From Cytophagaceae bacterium (lineage in GTDB: Bacteria; Bacteroidota; Bacteroidia; Cytophagales; Spirosomataceae): 23,243 nt of DNA. The stretch is from the NCBI GenBank assembly GCA_027485075.1, contig JAIXRT010000032.1, forward strand, positions 1 through 23,243, read 5' to 3'. How positions within the stretch are numbered: position 1 is the first letter of the stretch; each line of letters starts with the position of its first letter. The notes beneath the pieces were generated by a model. That model saw only the letters and a program-made list of their open reading frames with translations, had not been told where the DNA came from and did no database searches. Shown here one piece after another: positions 17,725 to 23,243 of the stretch. A program made the translations under genes and the position numbers.

Positions 17725-19545
17725 ATGATGACTCCATTCGAACCTAAAGAGATACTGCCAAGTCTACCGGAAGAACCCGGGGTGTACCGCTATTTCGATG
17801 CATCCGATACCATTATATATATAGGTAAAGCTAAAAATCTGAAAAATCGGGTTAGCAGCTACTTCACCAATATCCAAGGACACAATACAAAGACTCGAAA
17901 ATTAGTCCAGCAAATTTGTCGGCTTGAATTCACCATCGTGCATTCTGAATTTGATGCGTTGCTATTAGAGAATACGCTCATCAAGCAGTTTCAACCGAAA
18001 TACAACATCCTTCTTCGGGACGATAAAACATATCCATTTATCTGTTTGACTAAAGAATCATTCCCGCGTTTAATCACCTCACGCCGCATTGATCATAGTA
18101 TCGGTACATTTTTTGGTCCTTTTGCCAATCCCAAAGCGATGAACGGGTTGCTAGAAATGATTCATCAATTATACCCTTTACGCACGTGTGCTCTCGCCTT
18201 AAAACTAGGAAATATTGAGCAGGGCAAATTTAAAGTCTGTTTAGAATACCACATTGGCAATTGCAAGGGGCCATGTGAAGGATTGCAAGCGGAAAGTGAC
18301 TATTTAGTTTACATCGATCAGGTGACACACATTTTAAAGGGAAATTACCAAAAGCCGAAAGCTCACTTTCAGGAACGGATGCTTGAGGCGAGTGGCCGGT
18401 TGGCATTTGAGGAAGCGCAAGAATGGAAAGAAAAATGGGAGCTACTCGAAAACTTCCAAGCGAAATCCACCGTCGTTAATCCGTCCATTCATGACGTGGA
18501 TGTATTCTCGATGGTATCAGATGAACAAATGGCTTATATCAATTTCATGAAAGTCATCAATGGAACCATCTTACAATCACAAACCTATGAGGTCAAAAAG
18601 AAATTGGACGAAGATGAATCTGATCTATTAACCATGTTGATTTGGGAGAAGCGAGATCAATTCCATAGTGAGGCAAAAGAAATTTTGACCAATATCCCGA
18701 TGTCCCTTGAATTCAGAGGTGTCAAGAATATCATCCCGGTCATGGGTGACAAGAAAAAGCTGTTAGACATGTCGCTCAAAAATGTGCTCTATTTCCGGAA
18801 GGAGAAAGCAGACCGAAAAGCTGCCGAGGAATCAGGTGGGGATCGAAAAATGCGCATTTTACTGACTTTGAAGAATGACTTGCATTTAAAACACCTGCCC
18901 AAACGCATTGAATGTTTTGATAACTCAAATCTCCAAGGAACAAATCCCGTTTCCGCTATGGTTTGTTTCATTCAAGCACAAGCAGCTAAAAAAGAATACC
19001 GACTTTTCACCCCAAGAACCGTTGTGGGACCCGATGACTTTGCAACGATGCACGAAGTGATCACAAGACGCTACACCCGACTACTTGAAGAAGAGGCTGA
19101 ATTGCCAGATTTAATTATTGTCGACGGTGGAAAGGGTCAATTAAGTGCCGCATGTGATGCGCTGAAGGCGATTGGTTTATATGGCCAAATACCAATCATC
19201 GGAATTGCGAAGCGACTGGAAGAAATTTACTTCCCAGAAGATAGCTTACCTTTATATATAGACAAAAAATCAGAGTCGTTGAAGTTAATTCAACAATTAC
19301 GTGATGAAGCGCATCGATTTGGCATAACGGCACACCGAAATAAGCGCAGCAAAAACTTCTTAGTTAGCCAGTTGGAAGAATTAGAGGGTATCGGCAAACT
19401 TACTGCGCAAAAATTAATGAAGCATTTTGGTACCATCCGGAACATGTATGATGCCCCTGTAGATGAGCTCGAAAAAGTATTGGGAAAAGCAAAAACACCA
19501 AATTTCCGAAAACAACTGAAGATTTGGCTAGATGAAAAGTCTTAG
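17725..19545 (+). CDS. uvrC: UvrABC system protein C (excinuclease subunit)
   Basis: A 606-residue nucleotide-excision-repair nuclease that makes the 3' and 5' cuts around lesions bound by UvrB. The N-terminal GIY-YIG domain shows GVYRYFD (19-25), IYIGKAKNLKNR with Arg42, and a candidate catalytic Glu82. Four cysteines (155, 172, 180, 184) match the known Fe-S-binding cluster of UvrC. A UVR motif, which contacts UvrB, lies near 215-248. The RNase-H-like nuclease has FDNS (Asp399), VDGGKGQ (Asp467) and the DEAHRF motif (His530). A C-terminal helix-hairpin-helix lies near 552-600. Full length. ATG 17725 or the adjacent ATG 17728 could be the start. It is a single-gene unit; its stop overlaps the end of convergent nuoK by 4 bp. 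Confidence 0.96.
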   Translation: MMTPFEPKEILPSLPEEPGVYRYFDASDTIIYIGKAKNLKNRVSSYFTNIQGHNTKTRKLVQQICRLEFTIVHSEFDALLLENTLIKQFQPKYNILLRDDKTYPFICLTKESFPRLITSRRIDHSIGTFFGPFANPKAMNGLLEMIHQLYPLRTCALALKLGNIEQGKFKVCLEYHIGNCKGPCEGLQAESDYLVYIDQVTHILKGNYQKPKAHFQERMLEASGRLAFEEAQEWKEKWELLENFQAKSTVVNPSIHDVDVFSMVSDEQMAYINFMKVINGTILQSQTYEVKKKLDEDESDLLTMLIWEKRDQFHSEAKEILTNIPMSLEFRGVKNIIPVMGDKKKLLDMSLKNVLYFRKEKADRKAAEESGGDRKMRILLTLKNDLHLKHLPKRIECFDNSNLQGTNPVSAMVCFIQAQAAKKEYRLFTPRTVVGPDDFATMHEVITRRYTRLLEEEAELPDLIIVDGGKGQLSAACDALKAIGLYGQIPIIGIAKRLEEIYFPEDSLPLYIDKKSESLKLIQQLRDEAHRFGITAHRNKRSKNFLVSQLEELEGIGKLTAQKLMKHFGTIRNMYDAPVDELEKVLGKAKTPNFRKQLKIWLDEKS

Positions 19546-19847
19546 CTGCGGGATTCGAATTTGCCAACTTCAATGTGTTGGAACTGTCGGTATACCTGAA
19601 GAATGATCGAAAGGGCAATCGCCATTTCGCAAACGCCTACCACTAAAACAAATATTCCCATCATCAGGCCTTGTTGGCCATCATCCTGCCGCGAAAAAGC
19701 AATCAAGTTCAAATTAGCCGCATTTAAGATCAGCTCGATACCCATCAACATAAATATGGCATTGCGCTTCAAGATCATGATCGTGAAACCCGTCGCAAAC
19801 AACGCTGCACTTGCCCATAAAAAATAGATTACCGGTATCTCAGTCAT
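19542..19847 (-). CDS. nuoK: NADH-quinone oxidoreductase subunit K
   Basis: A 101-residue antiporter-like membrane subunit of complex I with three helices. The two conserved membrane glutamates of the NuoK family are visible: Glu38 in MGIELILNAANLN and Glu74 in GVCEMAIALS, followed by the conserved end of helix 3 (ILQVYRQ). The start chosen is the ATG at 19847, which gives a normal NuoK N-terminus and an 8-bp overlap with nuoJ. The frame extends to 19871, adding eight residues that would overlap nuoJ by 32 bp and look unlikely. It is the last gene of the minus-strand run; nuoL/M/N do not follow, because convergent uvrC begins here with a 4-bp overlap. Confidence 0.93.
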   Translation of the reverse strand: MTEIPVIYFLWASAALFATGFTIMILKRNAIFMLMGIELILNAANLNLIAFSRQDDGQQGLMMGIFVLVVGVCEMAIALSIILQVYRQFQHIEVGKFESRS

Positions 19848-20349
19848 TTCGTTTGGCAATATACGTGGCACCCACTAGGGCAATCAAGAGGTAAATTCCA
19901 ACTAATTCAAATGGAAAGGCATATTTAGTCAAAAGCGCAACACCTACGTCACGTAGTTTTGATTGGTCGTTACCTACCAGGTGCAATTCCCATTGCGTAC
20001 GTGTGAAGACATACATGAGCGCAAAAAAAATAGATAATCCAATGACTGCCGACCAGAAAAAACTTCGTTGTTCGACCCATAAATGATTCTGACCATGATT
20101 CTCACGGGACTGCTGGGTTGTCAACATGATTCCAAAAAGTATCAAAATAAGTACGCCGCCCACATAAATCATCAGATGTGAGACAGCCATGACATCTGCG
20201 TATGCGACCACATATAGTCCCGCCAGACCAAGCATACACATGAACATCGCCAAAGCTGCATGCAAAATATTGCGCGTAAACAACATCGCTAACCCACTAC
20301 CGCAAGTTAAAATCACTAAGGCCAAAAATGCGATTAATATCGGGGTCAT
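19840..20349 (-). CDS. nuoJ: NADH-quinone oxidoreductase subunit J
   Basis: A 169-residue membrane subunit of complex I, with about five predicted helices. The third helix carries IYVGGVLILILFGIML, the conserved NuoJ segment with a pi-bulge that is thought to rotate during coupling (Tyr62, Gly64, Gly65). Length matches the family. The start ATG overlaps the nuoI stop by 4 bp (ATGA) and its own stop overlaps nuoK, so the three genes are translationally coupled. No abnormal features. Confidence 0.94.
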   Translation of the reverse strand: MTPILIAFLALVILTCGSGLAMLFTRNILHAALAMFMCMLGLAGLYVVAYADVMAVSHLMIYVGGVLILILFGIMLTTQQSRENHGQNHLWVEQRSFFWSAVIGLSIFFALMYVFTRTQWELHLVGNDQSKLRDVGVALLTKYAFPFELVGIYLLIALVGATYIAKRND

Positions 20350-21626
20350 TCTGGATCAGGATTATCATTATTAGACGTTGGACGCTGGACGTCAGACGTT
20401 GGACTTGAATTAGACGCTGGACGTTGGACGTCAGACGTTGGACTAGGATTTTTAGGTTTTGATTTAAAACTCGGCTTAAAAGCAGGTTTAGGCACTGGGC
20501 GCTGGACGTCAGACGCTGGACCTTCAGCCTCCGAACTTTTCACATCGGACTCTTGACTAGCGACTGCCGACTCCGGACTAGCGACTGGTGACTGACCACT
20601 ATCCACTGCTTTCGCTTTAAAACTTGGCTTAAAAGCAGGTTTAGACACTGGGCGCTGAACGTCAGACACTGAACCTTCGGCCTCCGGACTTTTCACTTCG
20701 GACTCTTGACTAGCGACTGGTGACTGACTACTGATTACTGACGACTGACCACTATCCACTGTTTTCGCTTTAAAACTTGGCTTAAACGCGGGTTTAGACA
20801 CTGGACGCTGGACGTCAGACGCTGGACCTTCAGCCTCCGAACTTTTCACTTCGGACTCTTGACTAGCGACTGGTGACTGACTACTGACTACTGACGACTG
20901 ACCACTATCCACTGCTTTCGCTTTAAAACTTGGCTTAAACGCAGGTTTAGACACTGGACGCTGGACGTTAGACTCCGGACTAGTGACTGTCGACTCGGGA
21001 CTAGTGACAGCCGACTCGGGACTAGCGACTGGAGACTGACCACTGCCTTCAGCCTTTTTAAGCGCTTCCTTCTCCGCGACAAACTGCTCATACAACTTCT
21101 TTTTCTCAGCGGCCTCTTCCTCCGTCAAATTGGCGAATGAAAAATTATGCTCCTTCACCTCGAATACAGAAAAATCATATTCAGAAGTCATCGTTAAACA
21201 TTCGGTAGGACAAACAGTCGTGCACAAGCCACAGAAACAACATTTTGACATATCAATGTCAAATTTGGCTGCATACAAACGGATTGGGGATCCGTCGGAA
21301 GCATGGCCAACAAGCCCTGTCGCCTTAATGGGATCAATTTCAATGCAATCAACAGGACAGACTTTGACGCATTTGTCACAAACAATGCAATCATCCATCT
21401 CATTATGCAACTGATAACGACCATTATCAGGGATAGGAATGTCAACATGCGGATACTGCAAAGTCGTAATTCCCGCCGACTGCGAAAAATACGCTTCATC
21501 TTGAATGTTATGCTGGGTCCGCTGCTTACGGGCATCCCAGGCATGCTTCCATGTCAGCGACATCCCCTTCCGGGTGCTTTGAATCACATCTAAGATCTCT
21601 TTGAAATAGCGCTTCATCACTGACAT
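20346..21626 (-). CDS. nuoI: NADH-quinone oxidoreductase subunit I with a long tandem-repeat C-terminal extension
   Basis: The complex I subunit holding the two [4Fe-4S] clusters (N6a, N6b) that pass electrons toward the quinone site. The first cluster ligands are Cys80, 83, 86 and 90 (CIVCDKCVKVCP); the second are Cys129, 132, 135 and 139. An amphipathic N-terminus and a charged helix (about 167-192) complete a normal subunit of about 190 residues. It then continues to 426 residues, while usual NuoI is about 160-220. The tail is low-complexity, rich in Ser, Pro, Gln, Val and Lys. It repeats a 51-residue unit anchored by KPAFKPSFK at 227, 278, 329 and 380, with SPVASPE/SAVTSPE-type 7-residue repeats. 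No stop or frameshift interrupts it. The start shares one base with the upstream E1 stop (TAATG). The tail is presumably disordered; its function is unknown. Confidence 0.93.
   Translation of the reverse strand: MSVMKRYFKEILDVIQSTRKGMSLTWKHAWDARKQRTQHNIQDEAYFSQSAGITTLQYPHVDIPIPDNGRYQLHNEMDDCIVCDKCVKVCPVDCIEIDPIKATGLVGHASDGSPIRLYAAKFDIDMSKCCFCGLCTTVCPTECLTMTSEYDFSVFEVKEHNFSFANLTEEEAAEKKKLYEQFVAEKEALKKAEGSGQSPVASPESAVTSPESTVTSPESNVQRPVSKPAFKPSFKAKAVDSGQSSVVSSQSPVASQESEVKSSEAEGPASDVQRPVSKPAFKPSFKAKTVDSGQSSVISSQSPVASQESEVKSPEAEGSVSDVQRPVSKPAFKPSFKAKAVDSGQSPVASPESAVASQESDVKSSEAEGPASDVQRPVPKPAFKPSFKSKPKNPSPTSDVQRPASNSSPTSDVQRPTSNNDNPDPE
20371..20449 (-). repeat. 39-bp repeat with heptamers at the 3' end of nuoI
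   Basis: Two heptamer blocks, 20374-20404 and 20413-20447, are offset by 39 bp (13 codons). Each is made of GACGTTG, GACGCTG and GACGTCA units on the plus strand in perfect 7-bp phase. They encode the two TSDVQRP repeats in the last 30 residues of NuoI. Confidence 0.85.
20463..20968 (-). repeat. 153-bp tandem repeat (three full copies and a partial fourth) inside nuoI
   Basis: The anchor TTTAAAAC begins at 20463, 20616, 20769 and 20922, exactly 153 bp (51 codons) apart each time. By eye, copies 2 and 3 differ at about 10 of 153 positions. Copies 1 and 3 keep the same length although their internal heptamers differ in order. The fourth copy matches for about 47 bp and then passes into a long heptamer run. 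The unit encodes the PVSKPAFKPSFKAKAVDSGQ-type tail of NuoI. Confidence 0.95.
20548..20610 (-). repeat. Heptanucleotide array GACTNNN, block in 153-bp copy 1
   Basis: Nine consecutive 7-bp units, seven beginning GACT and the last two CACT on the plus strand (for example GACTAGC, GACTGCC, GACTGGT, CACTATC), in unbroken phase. Equivalent nine-unit blocks occur at 20701-20763 and 20854-20916 in the next two copies. Confidence 0.9.
20957..21047 (-). repeat. Longest heptanucleotide run, 13 units in phase
   Basis: Thirteen consecutive 7-bp units: GACG twice, then GACT-type units (one GACA), ending with CACTGCC. Because 7 is not a multiple of 3, three heptamers make one 7-codon cycle. The coding strand reads this as the SPVASPE, SAVTSPE and STVTSPE repeats at NuoI residues about 198-218. 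Confidence 0.92.
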
Positions 21627-23243
21627 TAAAAATATATGGCTGGATAAGATGAAGGATCCACTTCACGCATCATTTCGTAGACAGTATCCACCACATTCTC
21701 TACATTTGGTTTAGAGAAATAATCTCCATCTGAACTATAGGCCGGCCGATGCGGCATAGCCGCCATACAACGTGCCGGACTATCTAGCCATGAAAATGCC
21801 CCCTGCTTATCCAATACTTCTTGCATCATATAAGCCGACGTCCCCCCTGGCATATCTTCATCTGCAAAAAGCACCCGATGGGTCTTTTGAATCGAAGTCA
21901 AAATATGATGATACCGATCAAAAGGCAACAAAGTTTGCACATCGATCACCTCAACCGAAATCCCCATATCTGCTAAACTCGATGCAGCTTCCATAACTAT
22001 ACGGCACATAGAACCATACGTCACAATCGTCAAATCATTCCCCTCACGTAAAATTTCAGGCACCCCTAATTCAACTTGAATCTCTAACAGGTTAGTTGGC
22101 ATCGGCTCTTTTAATCGATATCCATTCAAACATTCAACCACAACGCCAGGATCATCCCCGGCCAACAATGTTCGGTACATACCCGCAGCCTGTGTCATAT
22201 CGCGTGGTACACAGAAATGAACTCCACGCAATCCATTAATTAACACGGCCATGGGACTTCCTGAATGCCAAATACCCTCCAAACGATGCCCACGCGTACG
22301 CAAGATCATGGGAGCTTTTTGTCCACCCGCCGTCCGGTAATGTAAACATGCCCAATCATCCGATAAAATCGGAAACGGGTAAAATATATAATCTAGATAC
22401 TGAATCTCTACAATGGGTCGCAAGCCGCGCATCGAAGCACCAATACCCTGTCCAACTATACTTACTTCACGAATCCCGGTATCCGTCACTTTTAATGGTC
22501 CAAAAACGTCTTGTAAACCCGCTAGAGTTTGATTGACATCGCCAATTTTACCAACGTCCTCTCCGAGTATAAATACACGTGGATCCGTCAAAAATTGGGC
22601 AAAACTCTTATTTAAAATTTCTCGTCCATCGACTAAAACAGGATCTTTGTCATACTCCGCCCGAATACCTTTGATGTGCATCGGACTTTGAGCTGACTCA
22701 CTCATTTGATGTGAACTAAACCGACGGTGATTTTTTGCTTCCAGTTCATGTAGCCAGTGGCGCAACAACTTAACTGCCGGTCCTTGGAAAAACCGAAATG
22801 CTCGTAGGGTTTTACGTCCTGCACGGACTAAATCACTAAAAATGGGATATGGCAACTGATTTAATTCCTCCAAAATAGGTTCAATCAAACCTGGCTCATT
22901 GGTGGAATCATATAGGTTTTTGGCAATCCGTAGAAATCCTTTTTTATCAATCTCAATCGAGGCCATGTAGGCCGCAAAAGCTTCTTTCTGAAATCTACGA
23001 GCTTCTTTAATTGCCTCCGCGTCGATCGCAGCTAAGGTTGGCTCATCTGAAATACCAGATTCAAGAATCCATTCCCGAAAGCGCAAATTGCAATCAGCGT
23101 CCTGCTCAAATTGCAAGCGTTCGGCTGATTTATAGCGCTCATGAGAACCAGAGGCTGAATGACCTTGTGGCTGGGTGCATTCGATCACATGCACTAAACA
23201 TGGGACATATTCATCGCGGGCTAATTGGGCGGCCTGCTGATAG
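21626..23243 (-). CDS. Fused 2-oxoacid dehydrogenase E1 alpha/beta subunit, C-terminal part (cut by window edge)
   Basis: A thiamine-diphosphate-dependent E1 component that decarboxylates a 2-oxoacid (branched-chain or pyruvate type) and passes the acyl group to the lipoyl E2. The frame is open through the right edge, so the GTG at 23194 is not the true start; about 538 residues are visible. The first ~170 are the end of the alpha-type domain, including the GHSASGSHERYKS loop corresponding to the E1-alpha phosphorylation/TPP loop. After a short linker the complete beta-type domain follows (VLVDGREILNKSF, FILGEDVGKIGD, DTGIREVSIVGQGIG, then a transketolase C-terminal fold with VEVIDVQTLLPFD). 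Such alpha-beta fusions are known in Bacteroidota. Substrate specificity cannot be read here. It lies directly upstream of nuoI, sharing one base (TAATG). Confidence 0.92.
   Translation of the reverse strand, partial: YQQAAQLARDEYVPCLVHVIECTQPQGHSASGSHERYKSAERLQFEQDADCNLRFREWILESGISDEPTLAAIDAEAIKEARRFQKEAFAAYMASIEIDKKGFLRIAKNLYDSTNEPGLIEPILEELNQLPYPIFSDLVRAGRKTLRAFRFFQGPAVKLLRHWLHELEAKNHRRFSSHQMSESAQSPMHIKGIRAEYDKDPVLVDGREILNKSFAQFLTDPRVFILGEDVGKIGDVNQTLAGLQDVFGPLKVTDTGIREVSIVGQGIGASMRGLRPIVEIQYLDYIFYPFPILSDDWACLHYRTAGGQKAPMILRTRGHRLEGIWHSGSPMAVLINGLRGVHFCVPRDMTQAAGMYRTLLAGDDPGVVVECLNGYRLKEPMPTNLLEIQVELGVPEILREGNDLTIVTYGSMCRIVMEAASSLADMGISVEVIDVQTLLPFDRYHHILTSIQKTHRVLFADEDMPGGTSAYMMQEVLDKQGAFSWLDSPARCMAAMPHRPAYSSDGDYFSKPNVENVVDTVYEMMREVDPSSYPAIYF

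Follow-up and report, generated by a model that had tools for sequence, protein, structure and literature searches.

The nuoI locus

The stretch of DNA analyzed here, called the window, is 23,243 nucleotides long and constitutes contig C135 of the draft genome of a freshwater bacterium (2.31 Mb, 286 contigs, 87% complete). The bacterium belongs to the genus Aquirufa; any other Aquirufa genome is called a congener, and the labels G, L, and P followed by numbers designate genomes, loci, and proteins, respectively. The features of interest are listed in Table 1. According to the list of ORFs nuoI starts with an ATG codon. Its product has the two [4Fe-4S] motifs of a NuoI protein (CxxCxxCxxxCP clusters at residues 80-94 and 129-143), with Fer4 matches within residues 74-145, and the gene is found in a neighborhood of nuo genes, nuoJ and nuoK following directly. 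The match to TIGR01971 (E value 1.7e-22, 79.2 bits) falls below the curated NCBIfam cut-off of 113.05, and the protein is likewise below the cut-offs of the remaining NuoI models shown in NCBIfam. Since JGI annotates close homologs as subunit I, and the window protein has matches among solved subunits I of complex I, these scores were read as a divergence of the clade.

Table 1. Features of the nuoI region, in window coordinates.
Feature	Coordinates	Strand	Basis or remark
2-oxoacid dehydrogenase E1 (beta part recognized), directly upstream of nuoI	21626..23194	-	Transket_pyr, Transketolase_C
nuoI, complex I subunit I, 426 aa	20346..21626	-	ORF, Fer4 domains, then nuoJ and nuoK
NuoI conserved core, residues 1-192, two [4Fe-4S] motifs	21051..21626	-	core pN/pS 0.02-0.07
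Repeat tail, residues 193-426 and stop	20346..21050	-	ORF, Tandem Repeats Finder, autocorrelation
Proximal 7-bp repeat segment (SPVASPESAVTSPES)	20949..21037	-	21-bp-period array 20970-21037
Module 1, KPAFKPSFK, residues 227-235	20922..20948	-	motif position
Linker 1, 7-bp repeat type	20796..20921	-	79% identity over 112 bp to intergenic C240:23446-23557
Module 2, KPAFKPSFK, residues 278-286	20769..20795	-	motif position
Linker 2, 7-bp repeat type	20643..20768	-	genome matches at tail-query 266-364
Module 3, KPAFKPSFK, residues 329-337	20616..20642	-	motif position
Linker 3, 7-bp repeat type	20490..20615	-	genome matches at tail-query 413-510
Module 4, KPAFKPSFK, residues 380-388	20463..20489	-	motif position
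Distal 7-bp repeat segment, TSDVQRP type, past module 4	20370..20462	-	many genome matches at tail-query 595-668
nuoJ	19840..20349	-	Oxidored_q3, E value 1.6e-32; 4-bp overlap with the nuoI end
nuoK	19542..19871	-	Oxidored_q2, E value 7.3e-22

The gene for a 2-oxoacid dehydrogenase E1 sits inside the nuo cluster; its frame is open to the end of the window, and its match to NF006667 (E value 6e-44) is below the cut-off. On the other side, in the region 17725-19871, nuoK is convergent with uvrC, the ends of both genes overlapping by 4 bp, and hence nuoL-nuoN do not come next at this location. The order uvrC-nuoK-nuoJ-nuoI-E1 is kept in six of seven congener loci, the seventh (L117) ending with its contig at nuoK.

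The repeat tail of NuoI

A first-pass annotation had described a NuoI core that ends near residue 192 and a tail that continues to residue 426 with a period of 51 residues, and both the ORF and the motif positions bore this out. At the DNA level the period is 153 bp: Tandem Repeats Finder reported 3.4 copies with 90% matches (score 833) between positions 20463 and 20980. The tail consists of a conserved basic-aromatic module, KPAFKPSFK, which in its wider form is [KR]PxF[KR]Px[FM]K, and of mostly acidic low-complexity linkers that separate the copies. A 27-base pattern for KPxFKPxFK has four matches in the 2.31-Mb genome, all of them in the nuoI tail, and the reversed control has none, which is far above chance. 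Considering that the genome is a draft, the exact number of four modules in the window is not secure. The linker DNA has a second period, of 7 bp, with autocorrelation values of 0.48, 0.47, 0.44, and 0.34 at lags 7, 14, 21, and 28 against 0.16-0.28 for all remaining lags between 3 and 29.

Modules in Aquirufa and in the order Cytophagales

Out of 38 genomes of the genus searched, 33 had a nuoI match at 1e-30 and five had none. Modules, from one to nine each, were found in 30 of the 31 NuoI sequences read, and the remaining one runs off its contig (G042 is cut by a contig end; G003 and G016 are cut likewise but their modules are visible). The strict KPxFKPxFK DNA pattern is present at nuoI in 32 of the 38 genomes, and its control gave no match; no nuoI locus was obtained from G043 and G047, yet the module was seen in them by this pattern. 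Four further matches that open a second contig of G016 were taken as the continuation of its nuoI array. A further protein search returned only more Aquirufa-like proteins (P0157 and P0191 were read). The linkers of the genus define a heptad clade, an EEVKP clade with three to nine modules, a type with two to three modules that includes one genome with a single module, and single-module types.

The module number changes fast. Eleven cores that are identical to that of the window at 157-160 of 160 positions are followed by one to three modules, compared to four in the window; with the core nearly identical and the count variable, the exact count cannot matter much. The existence of single-module congeners also supports the earlier proposal that an ancestral short KPAFKPSFK tail was amplified.

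The first-pass annotation considered a long NuoI tail unexpected, which does not hold for this group of bacteria. In a sample of the order, nuoI was present in 99 of 148 genomes, and 53 of these 99 had stop-to-stop NuoI frames of at least 300 amino acids, while 10 had frames shorter than 230; elsewhere in the phylum frames of at least 300 amino acids were found in 4 of 89. Since single-module and short NuoI proteins exist, many copies are not essential. Comparison of the tail with NuoI homologs of related Cytophagales, which had been suggested as a check, showed that repeat tails are widespread in the order. Among the titled loci of the best 80 of 265 relatives, 64 had at least two modules. 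The first 30 of these 80 represent the Aquirufa clade (18 with at least two modules); outside the Aquirufa rows, 46 of the 50 nearest titled relatives, including Dyadobacter, Runella, Emticicia, and Larkinella, had at least two [KR]PxF[KR]Px[FM]K-like modules with differing linkers. The counted motif copies per tail ranged from 1 to 15, and in the best 80 of 265 the length after the second Fe-S motif had a median of 248 residues and a maximum of 638, the latter in a record of Emticicia that bears the title complete chromosome. Order tails were read for 33 loci, mostly the best-scoring ones, and near relatives are therefore over-represented; L144 and L221 contain masked stretches, and the array of G175 extends beyond its locus sequence. 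With a looser family pattern, 46 of the 61 genomes of the family gave modules and 15 were missed; this pattern gives stray single matches elsewhere, and its control had one or two matches in some genomes. The module scan gave zero in several members of the order (G057, G095, G021, G023, and G019).

Linkers were more alike within a protein than in comparison with other genomes in 25 of 26 cases, a contrast that is weak in irregular arrays (0.24 within versus 0.24 between for G096, 0.23 versus 0.15 for G066). A tree required no fewer than eight switches between one module and several; the number is rough because the tree was a quick one, with long branches, and modules of G048, G057, G177, G138, G084, G095, and G021, which are divergent, were counted by eye. 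The likeness of linkers within proteins together with these changes indicates that amplification probably occurred many times. Gains and losses of copies, apparently through tandem duplication, have recurred in different lineages of the Cytophagales.

Selection on the modules

We compared modules, linkers, and core in five groups that include 21 of the 31 genomes of the genus, the second last group being a pair inside the last. The pN/pS ratios of the modules, which were picked with a motif expression that fixes some residues and so lowers pN, were 0.015, 0.066, 0.021, 0.0, and 0.111. In the same groups those of the linkers were 0.35, 0.34, 0.40, 0.39, and 0.53, and those of the NuoI core 0.052, 0.039, 0.020, 0.028, and 0.073. 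Copies within one array behave similarly: pS was 0.70 and pN 0.009 among the eight copies of G018, 0.55 and 0.015 among the nine of G031, and 0.34 and 0.019 among the four of the window genome (11 codons). Gene conversion should have erased the synonymous differences too, and these survive. Purifying selection maintains the module copies in the Aquirufa arrays examined, and this constraint, together with the mostly synonymous differences between copies, indicates that the tail is translated and its copies kept.

Two checks limit the bias introduced by the motif expression but do not remove it. No decayed copy was found among the 40 commonest of 148 partial matches, which on reading were shifted overlaps of full modules. 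With the loose seed P-x-[FI]-x-P, 500 seeds in 80 titled proteins were preceded by K or R in 99% of the cases and had K or R at the fourth seed position in 89%. Outside the genus the module ratio varies (0.085 in G175, 0.10 in G136, 0.15 in G110, and 0.29 in G150), and some arrays, e.g. those of G150 and G110, are less constrained. The expression found no module in G068, modules in G116 and G006 were identical in DNA and gave no ratio, and the linkers of G136 all differ in length.

Linkers and the dispersed 7-bp repeats

A comparison of the tail DNA with its own genome gave 80 non-self matches at E values up to 10. Only 24 of the 3,560 aligned bases lie within modules, where about 576 would be expected if they were uniformly distributed; the dispersed matches fall on the linkers. 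The intergenic element C240:23446-23557 aligns along most of Linker 1 with the same order of words. None of 42 matches checked, in 20 regions, was more than 80% inside an ORF of at least 150 amino acids, and one intergenic 7-bp array is covered by a 102-amino-acid frame. In their best frame, 41 intergenic arrays had 67 stops in 1,526 codons, i.e. about 10 stops per 234 codons, versus none in the tail; a stop-free frame is present in nine of the 41. The linkers in the lineage of the window are the dispersed 7-bp intergenic repeat of its genome, read in an orientation and frame without stops.

By reading, the nuoI array is composed of AGTNNTC, CCGGAGN, and CAACGTC-like words and not of exact TAACTGA direct repeats, and the word TCAGTTA is present in arrays of congeners. 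The six genomes with heptad tails had 5-92 matches to the AGTNNTC pattern, their own tail included (control, 0-6). There were no matches in six genomes of the EEVKP type and eight of the IPPK type, and 0-31 in the other eleven read; BLAST found one to three matches in some of the genomes without the pattern (G009, G016, G018, and G031). The association between heptad linkers and the repeat load of the genome thus goes one way only. On the tree the heptad linkers form one clade that requires one change, and therefore they were taken up once.

Intergenic arrays such as L061, L063, L064, and L065 in G000 are composites of AGTNNTC, CCGGAGN, and CAACGTC-type words, and in several places two arrays lie as a pair on opposite strands, with the potential to fold into long, imperfect hairpins. 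Such composite arrays are abundant in some Aquirufa genomes, and there is no pattern match in others.

Composition and predicted disorder of the tail

In 80 proteins the mean charge was +3.2 for modules and -3.3 for linkers, 277 of 285 linkers were net negative, and 546 of 625 aromatic residues were inside module spans. In the 31 tails of the genus Trp, Tyr, and Cys are absent outside the counted modules, and Phe occurs there no more than once. In the charge-hydropathy plot the tail of the window falls narrowly within the disordered range, and disorder-promoting residues make up 79% of it versus 55% of the core; this composition agrees with the earlier suggestion that the tail is probably disordered. 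Two AlphaFold2 models (mean pLDDT 48 and 55) have no assigned secondary structure in the tail after residue 194; they are poor even for the Fe-S core, which is unmodelled, and prove nothing about disorder. None of the 41 matched solved sequences had its best stretch beyond residue 187.

Possible function of the tail

The best explanation that we can offer, and we offer it tentatively, is that a disordered tail clusters or tethers complex I through multivalent contacts. Located on the cytoplasmic arm of complex I, the tail would act as a sticker-and-spacer polymer, in which the modules (about +3, with two aromatic residues) would be the stickers and the linkers (about -3) oppositely charged spacers. 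Modules of one tail could meet acidic linkers of other tails or an acidic neighbor in a reversible multivalent association that would cluster complex I or keep it beside its partners, and the number of modules would tune the avidity. The tail has the repeated aromatic and charged stickers, with spacers between them, that such a polymer needs, and the alternation of basic-aromatic motif and acidic linker in differing sequences suggests this behavior. As support for the predicted association, the charge alternation is suggestive only; the disorder of the tail, its binding target, and the encounter of modules with acidic linkers or acidic partners are inferred. Multivalency is argued for by the constraint on the copies of long arrays, since a single groove needs a single module.

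A somewhat unlikely alternative is that the array of modules works like a multi-site docking tail, each module being a binding site for one specific cytoplasmic partner, for example a dehydrogenase, another respiratory complex, or a chaperone. In its favor are the conservation of the motif at the level of single residues and the finding that its strict pattern is confined to nuoI in Aquirufa; a specific partner, however, leaves unexplained linkers that differ from each other and are nearly all acidic. One candidate partner would be the adjacent E1, named in the first-pass annotation as an example of an enzyme to which complex I might be tethered. E1 adjoins nuoI in all seven congener loci checked, including two with a single module, but it is not a general neighbor: within about 1.5 kb upstream it was present in four of nine loci from elsewhere in the family, and it was absent from 19 additional loci of the order (flanks of up to 1.5 kb) and from five loci of other families with longer flanks. 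Since many long, multi-module tails have no E1 beside them, tethering to E1, proposed from adjacency, was rejected as a general explanation. Less probable still is that the module staples complex I itself, lining the peripheral arm as does the ordered extension of E. coli NuoI, with extra copies adding avidity or being a tolerated surplus; a single module, as found in some relatives, would suffice for it. To our knowledge E. coli NuoI has no such module. Its extension (residues 139-180) passes along NuoG, B, F, D, and E and is reported to stabilize the arm (PMC8357420). A single groove does not predict that four Aquirufa arrays of seven to nine copies are constrained despite their synonymous divergence. 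Slightly lower again we place an anchor to the membrane surface, in which basic-aromatic modules, through binding to anionic lipid, would keep the peripheral arm pressed against the bilayer. The charge and aromatic residues of the module fit this role, as does the occurrence on NuoI tails of some other Bacteroidota of a different Lys-rich, Met/Leu-rich module (KKLSPMMAAKLAAKK-like); acidic linkers, on the other hand, would be repelled, and a motif rich in Pro would not be expected to adopt an amphipathic helix of the usual kind.

We consider it very improbable that the tail is merely a tolerated product of 7-bp repeats, selfish or neutral, that invaded nuoI at its 3' end, although the linker DNA is the dispersed intergenic repeat of the genome, the copy number changes fast, and TAACTGA repeats within ORFs elsewhere are said, in the portion of the source consulted, to be mainly at the protein periphery (PMC4679880). 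The constraint on the modules already disfavors this reading for them, and multi-module tails lacking 7-bp repeats exist in clades with no AGTNNTC matches, which gave zero to three BLAST matches in the genomes covered by that search. The notion of a tail that is merely tolerated, also part of the first-pass annotation, consequently fails for the modules and stays possible for the length of the linkers. A simple invasion of nuoI by selfish repeats was rejected, because there are multi-module tails in clades lacking any match to the AGTNNTC pattern and single-module tails in genomes with many such matches. An assembly artefact, which would bear only on the exact count in the window, is extremely unlikely: the draft is in 286 contigs and G016 appears broken inside its array, but arrays are present in genomes of titled strains and in one record titled complete chromosome, and a tail of the 7-bp type (P0064) is found in a two-member cluster with a longest contig of 2.71 Mb.

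Core subunits of complex I are regarded as compact and conserved. Taking up again the multivalent tail, one may extend it, with more doubt, to a proposal in which NuoI across much of the Cytophagales would carry a multivalent, fast-evolving disordered polymer that organizes complex I into clusters or metabolons, changes in motif number would retune it, and Aquirufa would have recruited junk-like intergenic repeats as spacers. If this is true, the different module amplified on NuoI of other Bacteroidota would be a parallel case. A motif array that is selected and repeatedly rebuilt in a single bacterial order makes testable the spatial organization of respiratory enzymes in bacteria, which have no extra subunits of the mitochondrial type, and the nuoI tail shows a route from intergenic repeat DNA to a protein spacer between functional motifs.

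Relation to known systems and additional NuoI tails

The architecture of a motif-repeat tail is known; its place on complex I and its recurrence across an order are not described in the literature searched, and no repeated NuoI tail was found among the matches listed from the open-access literature. One close case is E. coli NuoI, the same subunit, in which residues 139-180 form an ordered C-terminal extension that is also lineage-specific, extended, and almost without secondary structure; unlike the tails described here, which reach hundreds of residues with 1-15 motif copies, it has about 42 residues ordered on the arm, and the available part of the report mentions no repeats (PMC8357420). 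Coding tandem repeats of Borgs are, according to extracts of their description, in-frame, commonly disordered in the proteins, and said to be under strong selection, but they belong to extrachromosomal archaeal elements (PMC9879509); the NuoI repeats occur in ordinary bacteria, on a core subunit of a respiratory complex, and keep their module while the linkers change. Another study describes an over-representation of heptameric repeats in many genomes of bacteria (PMC4692102). From what could be consulted of PMC4679880, the TAACTGA heptamers of Beggiatoaceae, Cyanobacteria, and Bacteroidetes are likewise 7-bp direct repeats, mainly intergenic and sometimes at ORF ends, and the degenerate AGTNNTC set in the window lineage includes TCAGTTA, which is complementary to TAACTGA; the arrays described here differ in being degenerate composites whose coding copy is a linker between nuoI motifs. 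The Rho insert of Bacteroides is another lineage-specific disordered region in a conserved protein of Bacteroidota, with tandem repeats in some lineages; the protein is a different one, and phase separation is reported for one lineage (PMC10284900), while the NuoI tail is known here from sequence. The tail of CagA, in the partial account available, also has repeatable short docking motifs in a disordered C-terminal region; CagA is a translocated virulence protein and the likeness is one of architecture only.

Bacteroidota of other classes (L151, L152, L154, L157, and L158) have NuoI tails with a different basic, KKLSPMMAAKLAAKK-like module. The expression found three such modules in L154, two in L157, and one each in L151 and L152, and about two were counted by eye in L158; they possibly represent a parallel amplification on NuoI. 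In L251 (Emticicia sp. 21SJ11W-3, a record titled complete genome), where NuoI continues for 638 residues after the second Fe-S motif, its C-terminal end has the segments SQSLFDIDGP and QQSLFDFSSP, which set it apart from the other tails. These segments look somewhat like clamp-binding peptides.
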